Shown: positions 5,104 through 9,390 of the stretch, one piece after another | How the letters are laid out: every line of letters starts with the position of its first letter | Position numbering within the stretch: position 1 is the stretch's first letter | Source: a virus | DNA: 29,507 nt | IMG/VR virus record: IMGVR_UViG_3300042146_000078 | Coordinates: 1 to 29,507 of that record | Direction: 5' to 3' (one strand) | Translations under genes and position numbers: made by a program | Notes under the pieces: model-generated | Database searches by the model: none | Told to the model about the DNA's origin: nothing | What the model saw: only the letters and a program-made list of their open reading frames with translations

Positions 5104-6563
5104 TGGCAGACGTCACCTATACCCGCCCGGAATACGACGCGGCACAGTCCCGTTGGCGGCTGGTGCGCGATGTGTGCAAGGGCTCCGAAACAGTCAAAGC
5201 CCGAGGCGACGTTTATCTGCCGAAGCCGAATCCGCACGATATCAGCCAGGAGAACATTGAGCGGTACAAGGGCTACAAGCAGCGCGCCGTGTTCTACAAC
5301 GCCACCGGCCGGACGAAACACAGTCTGGTCGGCGCAGTGTTCCGCACCTGGCCAACACTGACCGTTCCGGGCGCTCTCGACTATGTGTCGAAGGACATCG
5401 ACGGGCAGGGCGTGAGCGTTTACCAGCAATCGCAATCGGTGATCGGACACCTGCTCGAAGTTGGTCGTCACGGGTTGCTGGTGGATTACGCCGCCGTGAA
5501 GGCTGGTACTGTGAGCAAGGCTGACGAGCAGGCGGGTCGAGCCCGTGCGAGCATTGCCAGCTACACGGCCGAGTCCATCAGGAACTGGAAAACGCGCAAG
5601 TTCGGTGGTCAGCATCTGCTGAGCCTGGTCGTCTTGCGCGAGGAAGTGGACATCGATACCGATGACGGCTTCGGTAGTGAAAAGGTTGTGCAATATCGAG
5701 TGCTGCGACTGGACGAAGCCGGCATCTACACGCAGGAAGTCTGGCAAGAGGGCAGCAGCGAAACATCAATGATCACCGCGCCTTTCACGCCGTTGAATGG
5801 AGTTGGTCAACCGTGGAAACTGATCCCGTTCCAGTTCCTCGGCAGCGAGAACAACGACACCAGCATCGACGATTCGCCGCTGTACGACATGGCAGTGCTC
5901 AACATCGGTCATTACTGCAATAGCGCGGACTATGAAGATTCGGTGTGGTTCTCTGGTCAGCCGCAATTCTGGATTTCCGGTCTCGATGAGGCTTGGCGCG
6001 ATCACCTAGAAGCGAACGGCATTTATGTGGGCTCGCGGGCTCCGCTGACGCTTCCTGCCAATGGTTCGTGTGGCTTTGCTCAGCCTGAGCCGAACACGCT
6101 CGTCAAAGAGGCTATGGACGCCAAGAAAGAGGACATGGTGTCGCTCGGCGCCCGATTAATCGAGCGAGGCAGCGCGGTGAAAACTGCAACCCAGGCTGAC
6201 AACGACAGCGCCGCCGAACATAGCGTCCTTTCGCTGATCGTCAGTAACGTCAGCGAGGCTTACAGCCAGTGCCTGGTCTGGATGGCGGAGTTCGTGAATG
6301 CGACGGGCGAGACGCTCTACAAGCTCAATCAGGACTTCAGCCAGATCACTCTGGACGCAACGATCCTGGCAGCGCTGTTCAACGCAGTGCAAGGCGGCAA
6401 GCTGCCGGCGGGCGACTTCTGGCAGTACCTGCGCGATCGAGGTGTGATTGATCCCGAGAAGACAGACGACCAGATCCGCGACGAACTGGAAACCGAGCAC
6501 CCCGGTCCCGACCTGGACGACGATGAGGTAATCCCGAATGGCGGCCAACCAGGCAATCCTTGA
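5103..6563 (+). CDS. Portal protein, DUF4055 type (486 aa)
   Basis: The portal forms the dodecameric ring at the capsid vertex through which DNA enters and leaves and to which the tail attaches. The protein shows the DUF4055 pattern: an N-terminal EYDAAQSRWRLVRDVCKG...YLPKPNPHD segment, YKQRAVFYNATGRTKHSLVGAVF, then LLEVGRHGLLVDYAA, and a later PLYDMAVLNIGHYCNSADYEDSVWFSGQPQ region. The tail is acidic (DPEKTDDQIRDELETEHPGPDLDDDE). Its position between the large terminase and a Mu F-like head protein supports the call. It overlaps the terminase stop by one base, and its 3' end overlaps the next gene by 26 bases. Confidence 0.92.
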   Translation: MADVTYTRPEYDAAQSRWRLVRDVCKGSETVKARGDVYLPKPNPHDISQENIERYKGYKQRAVFYNATGRTKHSLVGAVFRTWPTLTVPGALDYVSKDIDGQGVSVYQQSQSVIGHLLEVGRHGLLVDYAAVKAGTVSKADEQAGRARASIASYTAESIRNWKTRKFGGQHLLSLVVLREEVDIDTDDGFGSEKVVQYRVLRLDEAGIYTQEVWQEGSSETSMITAPFTPLNGVGQPWKLIPFQFLGSENNDTSIDDSPLYDMAVLNIGHYCNSADYEDSVWFSGQPQFWISGLDEAWRDHLEANGIYVGSRAPLTLPANGSCGFAQPEPNTLVKEAMDAKKEDMVSLGARLIERGSAVKTATQADNDSAAEHSVLSLIVSNVSEAYSQCLVWMAEFVNATGETLYKLNQDFSQITLDATILAALFNAVQGGKLPAGDFWQYLRDRGVIDPEKTDDQIRDELETEHPGPDLDDDEVIPNGGQPGNP

Positions 6564-7623
6564 TGCCACAATCCGGCATGCCGTATTCCTCGAGCAATTG
6601 AAGTCGGGGGAGGTCGCCAAGTTCGGGCCTTTCCTCAAGGAAATTGACCGCTCGATCCGTGAGCGACTGACCCGGGCCGACCTGACGGATTACACCGTCG
6701 CCCGACTGGAGCGGCTGCTGAACGAGGTCGACAGCCTGCTGCTGGGAATCTTCAACCGGTATAGCGAGAAGCTGAACCTCGACCTGATCGACATCGCCAA
6801 CTATGAGGCTGAGTTTGAAGCGACAAGCCTGAGCCGGGCGGCGCCGGTTGGCGTGTCATTCGATGCCGCTGTGCCGGGCGCTGCTGCGATCCGGGCAGCT
6901 ATCCTCACTAACCCGCTCAGCGTGCGCGGCGCGGATGGCGGAAAGCTGCTTGAGTCGTTCATTGAGGACTTCACCACCACTGAGCGGCAACGACTCACTG
7001 GTGCGATCCGGCAGGGCTTCTTCGAGGGGCAGACGAACTTCCAGATCATCAAGAACATTCGCGGCACCAAGGCGCTCCAGTGCAACGACGGCATACTCGC
7101 CACGATCAACCGCAACGCCGGTGCCATTGTGCGGACGGCAGTGCAGTACGTCTCCGCCCAAGCGCGGATGGAGACGCTGAAGGAAAACAGCGACATAGTT
7201 CAGCAGATCGAGATTGTCGCCACCCTGGACAGCAAGACGACCGTGCAGTGCAGGTCACTGGATGGTCGCCGGTTTCCACTCGATTCCGGGCCAAGGCCGC
7301 CGTTCCATATCAATTGCAGGACAACGTTCGTGCCTGTGACCCGGTTCAGCGCCTTGTTCTCCAAGGATGCCACGCGCGCATCCATCGGCGCTGGCGGTGC
7401 ACAGCAGGTGAGGGCAGACCTGAGCTATTACGACTGGCTCAAGCAGCAGCCGGCGGCGTTTCAGGACAAGGCTATTGGCCCGGTCCGCGCCAAGCTGTTC
7501 CGCGAAGGCGGACTGACGGTCGAACGATTCTCCGAGCTGCAGCTTGATCGAAACTTTGCACCTCTGACGCTTGTGCAGATGAAGGCTCTTGAGCCGCTAG
7601 CGTTTGAAAAAGCTAGGTTGTGA
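6538..7623 (+). CDS. Head morphogenesis protein, Mu F / SPP1 gp7 type (361 aa)
   Basis: This is a minor head protein, present in a few copies inside or on the procapsid near the portal. The diagnostic motif lies at about residues 236-262: C238, then SLDGRRFPLDSGPRPPFHINC with C260, then RTTFVPV. It is preceded by a helical region (RNAGAIVRTAVQYVSAQARMETLKEN). The start at 6538 lies inside the portal gene, a common coupling. The C-terminal 90 residues (YYDWLKQQPAAFQDKAIGPVRAKLF...) are also typical of the family in pseudomonad phages. The next gene is on the opposite strand with only two bases between the stops. Confidence 0.92.
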   Translation: MAANQAILDATIRHAVFLEQLKSGEVAKFGPFLKEIDRSIRERLTRADLTDYTVARLERLLNEVDSLLLGIFNRYSEKLNLDLIDIANYEAEFEATSLSRAAPVGVSFDAAVPGAAAIRAAILTNPLSVRGADGGKLLESFIEDFTTTERQRLTGAIRQGFFEGQTNFQIIKNIRGTKALQCNDGILATINRNAGAIVRTAVQYVSAQARMETLKENSDIVQQIEIVATLDSKTTVQCRSLDGRRFPLDSGPRPPFHINCRTTFVPVTRFSALFSKDATRASIGAGGAQQVRADLSYYDWLKQQPAAFQDKAIGPVRAKLFREGGLTVERFSELQLDRNFAPLTLVQMKALEPLAFEKARL

Positions 7624-7625
7624 CC

Positions 7626-8144
7626 TCAGCAGCCGACGCGATCTATTTCGAACTGCCTCATTTGATCGAAATACGCTTGGTGCCAAGGGATGATTTCAGC
7701 CTGAAACTCGCTAATGTTTTTGGCATTTTCAGCAGCATCATCCGTCGGCATTGAAATTTTCATAATTCGCCCGATTAGGTGCATCGTTTTAACGGCAAGA
7801 AAAGGAGGTGCGTTTGCGATTAATGATTGGCCGGCAACAACAACTGCATCGTAGTGGTTGGCCAGAGCCTCTGATGTCGGATTTGGATGAGCGGGATAGG
7901 CGGTCAGTTTTGCTATCGAAGTGAGCAGCGTTTCTGCTCGTGCTCGTAGTTTGTCCTCCTGATCGTCAATCCTCTTTACACAGCTAAGCTTCATCGTCTG
8001 GTTGGTCGAAGCCTGGCTGGAGTAGGTGGTGATTCCAACGCCGACAGTAGCTGATAGTGCAGCGATAATTGCCGCCTGAACTGTGACATCAATTCTCGTC
8101 CAGCCAGTTGATTCTGCTTTTCCAACAAGCCTGGGTAGCTTCAT
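7626..8144 (-). CDS. Leftward membrane-anchored accessory protein, unknown function (172 aa)
   Basis: The protein has a short basic N-terminus, then one hydrophobic segment at about residues 22-42 (VTVQAAIIAALSATVGVGITT). A long, mainly helical region follows, probably periplasmic, with a KLSCVKRIDDQEDKLRARAETLLTS stretch and a final cysteine. The start at 8144 is chosen because AAGGA lies 8 bases upstream; ATGs at 8162 and further up have no such site. It converges tail to tail with the head gene (two bases between stops) and points against the late operon, so it is probably an accessory gene expressed in the lysogen. Family unknown. A role at the membrane, such as blocking superinfection, is only a guess. 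Confidence 0.72.
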   Translation of the reverse strand: MKLPRLVGKAESTGWTRIDVTVQAAIIAALSATVGVGITTYSSQASTNQTMKLSCVKRIDDQEDKLRARAETLLTSIAKLTAYPAHPNPTSEALANHYDAVVVAGQSLIANAPPFLAVKTMHLIGRIMKISMPTDDAAENAKNISEFQAEIIPWHQAYFDQMRQFEIDRVGC

Positions 8145-8249
8145 TGGGTGATCCTTTTCCATATTTAGTCGATTTGCGGCGTTCGAAGCGCGCAGCATCC
8201 TACAGCGATTCCGCAAAAAACAGGTCCGCTGTGGCAGGTTTTTATGCTT

Positions 8250-8283
8250 GCAGGCAGGGCCTGTACCCTCGTCTCCCGGAGAC
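8250..8283 (+). repeat. Double-hairpin leader, copy A (no coding start follows)
   Basis: Two small stem-loops stand side by side. Hairpin 1 is 8250-8255 with 8259-8264 around AGG; hairpin 2 is GTCTC 8271-8275 with GAGAC 8279-8283 around CCG. The 34-35 base element closely matches the leader of the scaffold gene at 8632-8664, with the stems kept and the loops and linker changed. No ATG with an open frame follows at the expected distance. This looks like a duplicate left beside the inserted accessory block. Confidence 0.6.
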
Positions 8284-8306
8284 AGCGTCAAGCTGTCGCG
8301 TGACCG

Positions 8307-8335
8307 TTGACTGAGGATGGGGATCTGCATATACA
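8307..8335 (+). promoter_or_regulatory. Strong sigma-70 promoter candidate for the acidic 52-aa gene
   Basis: TTGACT (8307-8312) and TATACA (8330-8335) are separated by exactly 17 bases. The boxes match consensus at five and four of six positions. Transcription would start near 8342, giving a leader of about 26 bases to the ATG at 8368. It is the best-looking rightward promoter I found in the window. Confidence 0.6.
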
Positions 8336-8367
8336 GTCCGTTCTTTCTATTATTGTTTCGGTAAGTC

Positions 8368-8526
8368 ATGAGCGAAGAACGAGATATCCCCGAGCCAGAG
8401 CACGATCACCTGCTCGATCATGAATTCCATGATGACGAGTCATGGGTTGAAGACGACGCTCAAGCAGCTTTTGACGAAGAAGACGATGACGTTGATTTTC
8501 TTGATCAGATAGATCAGGAGGAATGA
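8368..8526 (+). CDS. Very acidic small protein, possible DNA mimic (52 aa)
   Basis: Translation from 8368 gives MSEERDIPEPEHDHLLDHEF and then a D/E-rich tract ending FLDQIDQEE, 52 residues with stop TGA at 8524-8526. By my count 25 residues are Asp or Glu; there is one Arg and no Lys. The ribosome site is weak (GGTAAG). The gene has its own promoter (8307-8335) and an intrinsic terminator (8554-8580), so it is a complete transcription unit between the head genes and the scaffold gene. Such charge is known from DNA-mimicking phage proteins such as Ocr and some anti-CRISPR or anti-silencer proteins. That is an analogy, not a match, and an acidic structural or chaperone role is also possible. 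Confidence 0.6.
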   Translation: MSEERDIPEPEHDHLLDHEFHDDESWVEDDAQAAFDEEDDDVDFLDQIDQEE

Positions 8527-8553
8527 CCCGAAGGGTCTATGTGTTTCGAATCA

Positions 8554-8580
8554 AGCCCTGGCATCCGCCGGGGCTTTTTT
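8554..8580 (+). terminator. Intrinsic terminator of the acidic-protein unit
   Basis: AGCCCTGG (8554-8561) pairs with CCGGGGCT (8568-8575) around a 6-base loop, eight pairs with one T-G, followed by TTTTTT. It lies 28 bases after the stop of the 52-aa gene. Confidence 0.8.
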
Positions 8581-8600
8581 ATGCGCGAGATTCACTCAAG

Positions 8601-8624
8601 GCTCTGTCATTGACGGGGCTTTTT
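8601..8624 (+). terminator. Second tandem terminator before the scaffold leader
   Basis: GCTCTGTC (8601-8608) and GACGGGGC (8612-8619) form eight pairs, two of them T-G, around ATT and are followed by TTTTT. With the hairpin at 8554-8580 it makes a tandem terminator directly upstream of the scaffold leader. Confidence 0.65.
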
Positions 8625-8631
8625 CATATCT

Positions 8632-8664
8632 GCGGGCAGGGCCTGCAAATCGTCTCTGGGAGAC
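8632..8664 (+). promoter_or_regulatory. Double-hairpin leader of the scaffold gene, copy B, sequestering the ribosome site
   Basis: Hairpin 1 pairs 8632-8637 with 8641-8646 (loop AGG). Hairpin 2 pairs GTCTC 8652-8656 with GAGAC 8660-8664 (loop TGG). The Shine-Dalgarno sequence GGGAG (8658-8662) lies in the loop and 3' arm of hairpin 2, followed by AAAAAA and the ATG at 8671. Folding would partly hide the ribosome site, which could limit or time scaffold synthesis. Copy A at 8250-8283 keeps both stems. Confidence 0.5.
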
Positions 8665-8670
8665 AAAAAA

Positions 8671-9390
8671 ATGGGTTTGAAATATCAGCTGGACACTCTG
8701 GATGGTCTCGATGACTCCGCGAAAGCGCTTTATGTCGAGAAGGACGGCAAGTTCACCCTCGGCATTGAAGGTTTGCCGCAGCCAGAGGACGTCTCAGGCC
8801 TGAAGTCGAAGGTTGAAGAGCTGCTCGGCGAGAAGAAAGCCGCCGAGAAGGCTCGCAAGGATGCAGAGGATCAGGCTCGACTGGAGCGCGAAGAAGCTGC
8901 CCGCAAATCGGGCAACGTCGAAGAGCTCGAGAAGTCCTGGTCTGAAAAGTACAACCGCCGCGAAGCTGAACTGAACGGTTCGCTGGAACAGGAACGCGCA
9001 ACGCTGAGCGGGCAGATCCGGGATCTGACTGTCGGCCGTACCGCTACTGACATCGCGTCTGCCCTGGCAATCCCAGGTAGCGCAGAAGCCCTGCTGCCCC
9101 ACATTGAGCGCCGTCTGAGTGTCGAGCAGCGTGACGGGAAGCCTGTGGTTGTCGTGCTCGATAAGCAGGGCAAGCTCTCGGCATCTTCGCTGGACGAGCT
9201 GAAAGCAGAATTTGCAAACAACACCGCCTTCGCACCGTTGATCGCGGGTAGCAAGGCATCTGGCGGCGGGGCCGGAGGTGCTGGAAATGGCGGTGGGGCC
9301 GCTCTGAAACGCTCTGAAATGACGTCTGTGGCCAAGCGTGAGTTCATCACCGCTAACGGTCAGGACGCTTACCTGAAATTGCCCAAATAA
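8671..9390 (+). CDS. Capsid scaffolding protein (239 aa)
   Basis: Scaffolds fill the procapsid and guide coat assembly before leaving. The protein starts MGLKYQLDTLDGLDDSAKALY, continues with a long charged coiled-coil region at about residues 45-115 (VEELLGEKKAAEKARKDAED and onward), a compact domain (about 120-190), a glycine-rich linker near 198-210 (GGGAGGAGNGGG) and a C-terminal helix (KRSEMTSVAKREFI) of the kind that binds coat protein. Its place directly before the major capsid gene agrees. The start at 8671 has GGGAG 8 bases upstream, inside a hairpin. Confidence 0.88.
   Translation: MGLKYQLDTLDGLDDSAKALYVEKDGKFTLGIEGLPQPEDVSGLKSKVEELLGEKKAAEKARKDAEDQARLEREEAARKSGNVEELEKSWSEKYNRREAELNGSLEQERATLSGQIRDLTVGRTATDIASALAIPGSAEALLPHIERRLSVEQRDGKPVVVVLDKQGKLSASSLDELKAEFANNTAFAPLIAGSKASGGGAGGAGNGGGAALKRSEMTSVAKREFITANGQDAYLKLPK

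Follow-up and report, generated by a model that had tools for sequence, protein, structure and literature searches.

A hyperacidic mini-gene in the head region of a Pseudomonas phage: a probable moron with relatives on Pseudomonas chromosomes

The virus record IMGVR_UViG_3300042146_000078 (29,507 nucleotides, analysed at full length and referred to here as the window) carries, among the head genes of a tailed phage, an open reading frame (ORF) for a hyperacidic protein of 52 residues (8368-8526, + strand). This ORF and its surroundings probably represent a moron, i.e., the Pseudomonas phage copy of a chromosomal mini-gene that has its own promoter, resides at a variable cargo site and has its transcript ended by phage terminators. 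Sequence comparison establishes the gene family, the promoter, the selection acting on the protein, the chromosomal distribution, the composite origin of the unit and the hypervariable nature of the site.

The acidic gene and its conserved core

Direct reading of the window confirms the composition given by an earlier sequence-only reading: of the 52 residues, 25 are Asp or Glu and one is Arg, whereas Lys is absent. The protein also contains four His. The start at ATG 8368 is fixed by a TAA in frame two codons upstream. Orthologues occur in phages and on chromosomes; searches with a small alignment yielded 15 viral and 18 Pseudomonas loci, the genome scan for Pseudomonas loci using peptide patterns taken from the N-terminal half. 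Family proteins range from 44 to 69 residues in length, and two loci (L003 and L008) carry the gene with in-frame length changes of -1 and +9 residues, respectively. The ratio of nonsynonymous to synonymous substitution rates (dN/dS) is 0.080 in the clade starting with MSEERD or MNEERD (27 different copies) and 0.121 in 41 more distant chromosomal copies, where synonymous divergence is saturated. Third codon positions are far more variable than first and second ones. The sequence-only reading had proposed conservation of the frame as a check: frequent stops or frameshifts are absent among the homologues, indels are in frame and the dN/dS of 0.08 is not near 1. This pattern shows that the acidic ORF is a real gene under protein-level selection.

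It also bears on the alternative that the transcript is chiefly a small RNA and the ORF secondary. The short promoter-terminator layout and the conservation of the 5' leader within the clade would suit a small RNA, but the low dN/dS, third-position variation and in-frame indels make this very improbable. Moreover, chromosomal copies mostly lack a terminator right after the ORF, and the Rfam model sX6 matches the ORF end and terminator only below threshold (19.5 bits versus a gathering score of 40), which was taken as chance.

Conservation is focused on a core motif of 12 residues, positions 9-20 of the window protein (EPEHDHLLDHEF; family consensus EPEH[DE]HLLDxEF). In an alignment of 24 sequences with identity down to 42 %, residues 9-12, 14-17, 19 and 20 (EPEH-HLLD-EF) are invariant, while position 13 holds D (E once) and position 18 varies between H, P and R. 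Since the family set of 68 loci was gathered using the core motif, invariance within that set is partly by construction; independently of it, the fetched profile-search hits to an E value of about 5e-5 all retain the core, with few changes only (H18 to P or R, D13 to E).

The motif invites comparison with a metal-binding or metal-buffering peptide, produced from host and phage copies, in which E9, E11, H12, H14, D17 and E19 provide an HxH element plus carboxylate ligands. The invariance of H12, H14 and the acidic residues around them across all aligned copies would fit such a role. However, P10, L15, L16 and F20 are just as invariant although simple chelation would not require them, there is no conserved Cys and a metal-gene neighbourhood was not seen at the chromosomal loci inspected, so that such a role is rather improbable.

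Pfam, NCBIfam, PHROGs, PADLOC and the PDB sequences contain no meaningful match to the acidic protein. Likewise, tblastn returned zero matches at E<=10 from 50,697 phage records (inclusion of the LUZ24 record was not separately checked) and nothing from a plasmid collection, and a text search for the core motif in a literature library retrieved no paper.

Promoter and leader

The sigma70-type promoter TTGACT-17-TATACA noted by the sequence-only reading is present at 8307-8335 (+) and is co-inherited with the acidic gene. It comprises a -35 element at 8307-8312, a spacer of 17 nt and a -10 element at 8330-8335, followed by 32 nt to the ATG. The pattern TTGA[C/T]N-17-TATA[C/T]A, located 20-45 nt upstream of the ATG, occurs in 61 of the 68 family loci versus 0.0 in shuffled upstream regions; loci departing from it include L075, L085, L100 and L112. 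Among distant chromosomal copies, pairwise identity amounts to 91 % in the -35 and 94 % in the -10 element, as compared to 43 % in the spacer and 36 % in the 40 bases upstream. Footprinting across the family thus argues that the promoter is real. By contrast to this comparison among loci, single-sequence signals are weak, since they show no excess over shuffles: in a consensus scan of the 3-kb region, promoters were no commoner than in shuffled sequences and terminator-like sites numbered 3 versus 3.3. The scan missed 8307-8335 because its rule requires T at the final -10 position.

The 5' leader (8336-8367, +) contains a weak Shine-Dalgarno sequence in this clade (CGGTAAGTC), where many chromosomal copies have AGGAG. 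The 24 nt downstream of the -10 element share 78 % pairwise identity within the clade of the window. In many chromosomal copies (upstream regions of L111-L135), the -10 region has the nearly palindromic sequence GCCTATACAGGC, which might serve as an operator.

Composite origin of the unit

In seven chromosomal copies of the MSEERD type that bear no phage scars (L089, L091, L092, L095, L097, L098, L099), similarity to the window (86-88 % identity) is limited to the stretch between 8294-8301 and 8526-8530, and two phages without the acidic gene (L010, L012) match only 8553-8671, i.e., both terminators plus the scaffold leader (85-87 %). From promoter-to-stop matches on the one side and terminator-leader matches on the other it follows that the unit is composite: by these boundaries, a host promoter-gene cassette of 230 bp (8299-8530, +, the stretch common to scarless chromosomal copies) is placed before the phage's own terminators.

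The first intrinsic terminator (8553-8580, +) has a stem at 8553-8576 with 10 pairs, 7 of them G-C, and a T tail to 8580. The second (8598-8624, +), directly read as GCTCTGTC-ATT-GACGGGGC with further pairs (stem 8598-8622) and a subsequent T run, is found at the same place in relatives with other cargo, where it was located by script. A terminator shortly 3' of the acidic ORF is present in 15 of the 27 MSEERD copies (phage-borne or phage-scarred) and in 4 of the 41 other chromosomal copies. Because phages devoid of the acidic gene possess both terminators, these are part of the phage insertion site, and their assignment to the gene itself was rejected. The terminator of the sequence-only reading is therefore present, but as the first of a tandem pair that belongs to the phage site; similarly, its self-contained transcription unit holds as a layout, but not as an origin, the terminators coming from the insertion site.

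The two terminators (8553-8624) lie inside the late structural operon, immediately 5' of the scaffold gene, and one of them persists in phages without cargo. Late transcription would have to read through them, which suggests antitermination.

Distribution on Pseudomonas chromosomes

With the host genus equated to that of the L088 genome, profile searches detected the acidic family in 82 of its 399 genomes, so that roughly one in five sampled Pseudomonas species possesses it. Among 294 genomes of the order, the query genome alone gave a hit; both genome sets are samples. Many chromosomal copies have a common neighbourhood: (i) adhP, encoding an alcohol dehydrogenase, (ii) the acidic gene, (iii) a gene for a DoxX-type membrane protein, and (iv) genes for a PAS histidine kinase, a KaiC-like ATPase and a response regulator. 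Copies of the MSEERD type adjoin LysR regulators, transporters, a type VI secretion gene and others. In both neighbourhoods the gene names were assigned by reading the sequences and not by family search. A single genome harbours a prophage copy as well as a chromosomal copy of the acidic gene. A family confined to phages was rejected, since pattern scan and profile searches both found chromosomal copies; by its distribution, the acidic family is a Pseudomonas chromosomal gene rather than a weapon of the phage's own.

Conversely, the gene could originally have been phage cargo, with every chromosomal copy being a prophage relic. Four chromosomal loci (L090, L093, L094, L096) indeed retain terminator, leader or head-gene scars of a phage. 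On the other hand, about a dozen chromosomal loci have one common non-phage neighbourhood, the deepest sequence diversity is chromosomal and the match of the scarless copies ends at promoter and stop codon, all of which renders the relic explanation unlikely.

Some observations nevertheless weigh against the proposed host-to-phage origin and the action of its product. The phage scars borne by the chromosomal copies L090, L093 and L096 imply that transfer runs from phage to chromosome, too; L096 is a decayed prophage in which the head gene is cut and only the C-terminus of the scaffold remains, while the acidic ORF is intact, its survival in turn counting in favour of the moron. Also in its favour, a tree calculated from promoter and ORF together intermingles phage and chromosomal copies and requires five or more changes of place; however, only 6 of the 25 inner branches are well supported, leaving direction and number of transfers unsure. 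Furthermore, copies of the phage clade have a weak ribosome-binding site, and AlphaFold2 (24 homologues) gave no confident fold for the protein (predicted local distance difference test score, pLDDT, 67; predicted template modelling score, pTM, 0.18).

The cargo site between head-morphogenesis and scaffold genes

The window represents the structural region of a tailed phage with genes for terminase, portal (5103), head morphogenesis (6538) and scaffold (8671), followed farther along by major capsid (9402), tape measure (14821) and central tail fibre (21435). The left edge of the cargo site is formed by the head morphogenesis (Mu F-like) gene (6538-7623, +; PF04233, phrog_241), the right edge by the head scaffold gene (8671-9390, +; phrog_206). 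Across the site, G+C dips from 0.60 to about 0.50, as compared to 0.58-0.62 in the flanking genes. In phage relatives, retrieved as 68 loci via the capsid protein, the corresponding gap measures between 46 bp and about 1 kb, with varying cargo on either strand, several relatives having no cargo and a gap of 46-124 bp. This variation marks the gap between head-morphogenesis and scaffold genes as a hypervariable cargo site. With its variable accessory site, own promoter, terminator and lower G+C, the acidic gene is, by layout, a moron among the head genes, as originally proposed. In the same gap of L004-L067, corresponding to 7623-8671 of the window, some 45 relatives hold differing genes or just the terminator and leader.

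A second cargo gene is located at this site on the opposite strand (7626-8162, -). Its product contains a SCVKRxDxQE-like motif and, near the N-terminus, what looks like a single membrane segment; searches of Pfam, PHROG and PADLOC gave zero matches. Proteins of similar appearance recur at the same site in L014, L020, L029 and L066. The cargo at this site in L185 (Pseudomonas phage PseuP_222, 3141-3746) is annotated as 'pilin, transmembrane domain'.

In many relatives, a terminator and then a fixed two-hairpin leader precede the scaffold gene, whatever the cargo. In the window this leader (8621-8665, +) forms the hairpins GCGGGC-AGG-GCCTGC and GTCTC-TGG-GAGAC. An extra, diverged copy of terminator tail and scaffold leader with two small hairpins (8239-8284, +; direct repeats D1 and D3) lies at a spacing of 381-382 from the first and is 80-88 % identical to it; remnants of a second leader are also present in several other phages bearing the acidic gene. 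Within 8630-8665, the second leader hairpin includes the GGAG ribosome-binding site; the leader is retained irrespective of cargo. The scaffold leader may act both in translational control and as a recombination platform.

The phages L075, L079 and L088 share the site and the scaffold leader, yet encode a strongly divergent major capsid protein (28-30 % identity); capsid genes thus seem to be swapped beside the cargo site.

Possible function of the acidic protein

Phage DNA mimics such as T7 Ocr, T4 Arn and some anti-CRISPRs are folded, mostly larger proteins. High negative charge is common to them and the acidic protein, which differs by its conserved linear motif, its chromosomal orthologues and the lack of a structural neighbour. 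From the charge, the sequence-only reading had suggested a DNA mimic that could act on restriction, CRISPR or nucleoid proteins such as MvaT. In such a counter-defence role, the net charge of 24 negative units would stand in for DNA and inhibit these targets. The extreme acidity and the position at a phage accessory site would agree with this role. Yet the gene is conserved on chromosomes with common neighbours in many species, and conservation is focused on the 12-residue motif and not on charge alone; an anti-restriction or anti-CRISPR mimic is disfavoured on these two grounds. Further points against a mimic are the lack of matches at E<=10 among the phage records, the missing PADLOC or PHROG family and the absence of a confident fold. 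As to the comparison with known mimics that had been proposed as a check, Foldseek found zero structural neighbours of the model in the PDB and the sequence searches yielded no match to a mimic either, the fold comparison being weak given the low-confidence model. In that model, the N-terminal motif is extended and the tail forms two helices. With a chromosomal family in synteny, no family match and no confident fold, the DNA mimic is unlikely.

The known MvaT inhibitor gp4 of Pseudomonas phage LUZ24 likewise speaks against mimicry in the case of MvaT. This 46-residue protein, encoded in the early phage region, folds into an antiparallel coiled coil that exposes a positive surface (PMC8501957). 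The acidic protein is similar in size and also occurs in Pseudomonas phages, but has a net charge of about -24 (25 acidic, 1 basic residues) and no confident fold. Affiliation with the gp4 family is indicated neither by a positive surface nor by sequence similarity, as judged from the tblastn search of phage records at E<=10, in which the LUZ24 record may or may not have been included.

A closer precedent is pid of Salmonella phage P22, a moron that encodes 86 residues, acts on a host operon and was described as an ORFan (PMC3573128). Both are small late-region morons, and pid is a good precedent for an action on the host; the acidic gene differs in having a chromosomal counterpart, a host promoter and phage-site terminators.

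For a moron derived from a chromosomal mini-gene, the following sequence of events may be envisaged. The phage would take up the host mini-gene together with its promoter into the gap between head-morphogenesis and scaffold genes. In the lysogen, host polymerase would read the cassette independently while the late genes are silent, and the site's own terminators would end the transcript, so that the lysogen would receive an additional dose of a small protein of the host. Less surely, the acidic protein could be largely extended and bind one specific host partner via its core motif, with electrostatic attraction between the acidic tail and a basic partner reinforcing the contact.

Implications

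The arrangement as such, a moron, is of a known kind; the new part is a protein family for which Pfam, NCBIfam and PHROG have no matching model. The motif of 12 residues provides a target for mutation and pull-down, and the chromosomal copy makes a simple knock-out test possible in harmless laboratory strains. The locus illustrates how a host cassette consisting of promoter and gene only may obtain its terminators from a phage cargo site. As a tentative but plausible extension, the family, with its invariant EPEH[DE]HLLDxEF motif and hard-wired promoter, could comprise undescribed regulatory mini-proteins of Pseudomonas that bind a central host component, and phages would repeatedly collect and redeposit the cassette, thereby resetting its dosage in the lysogen.
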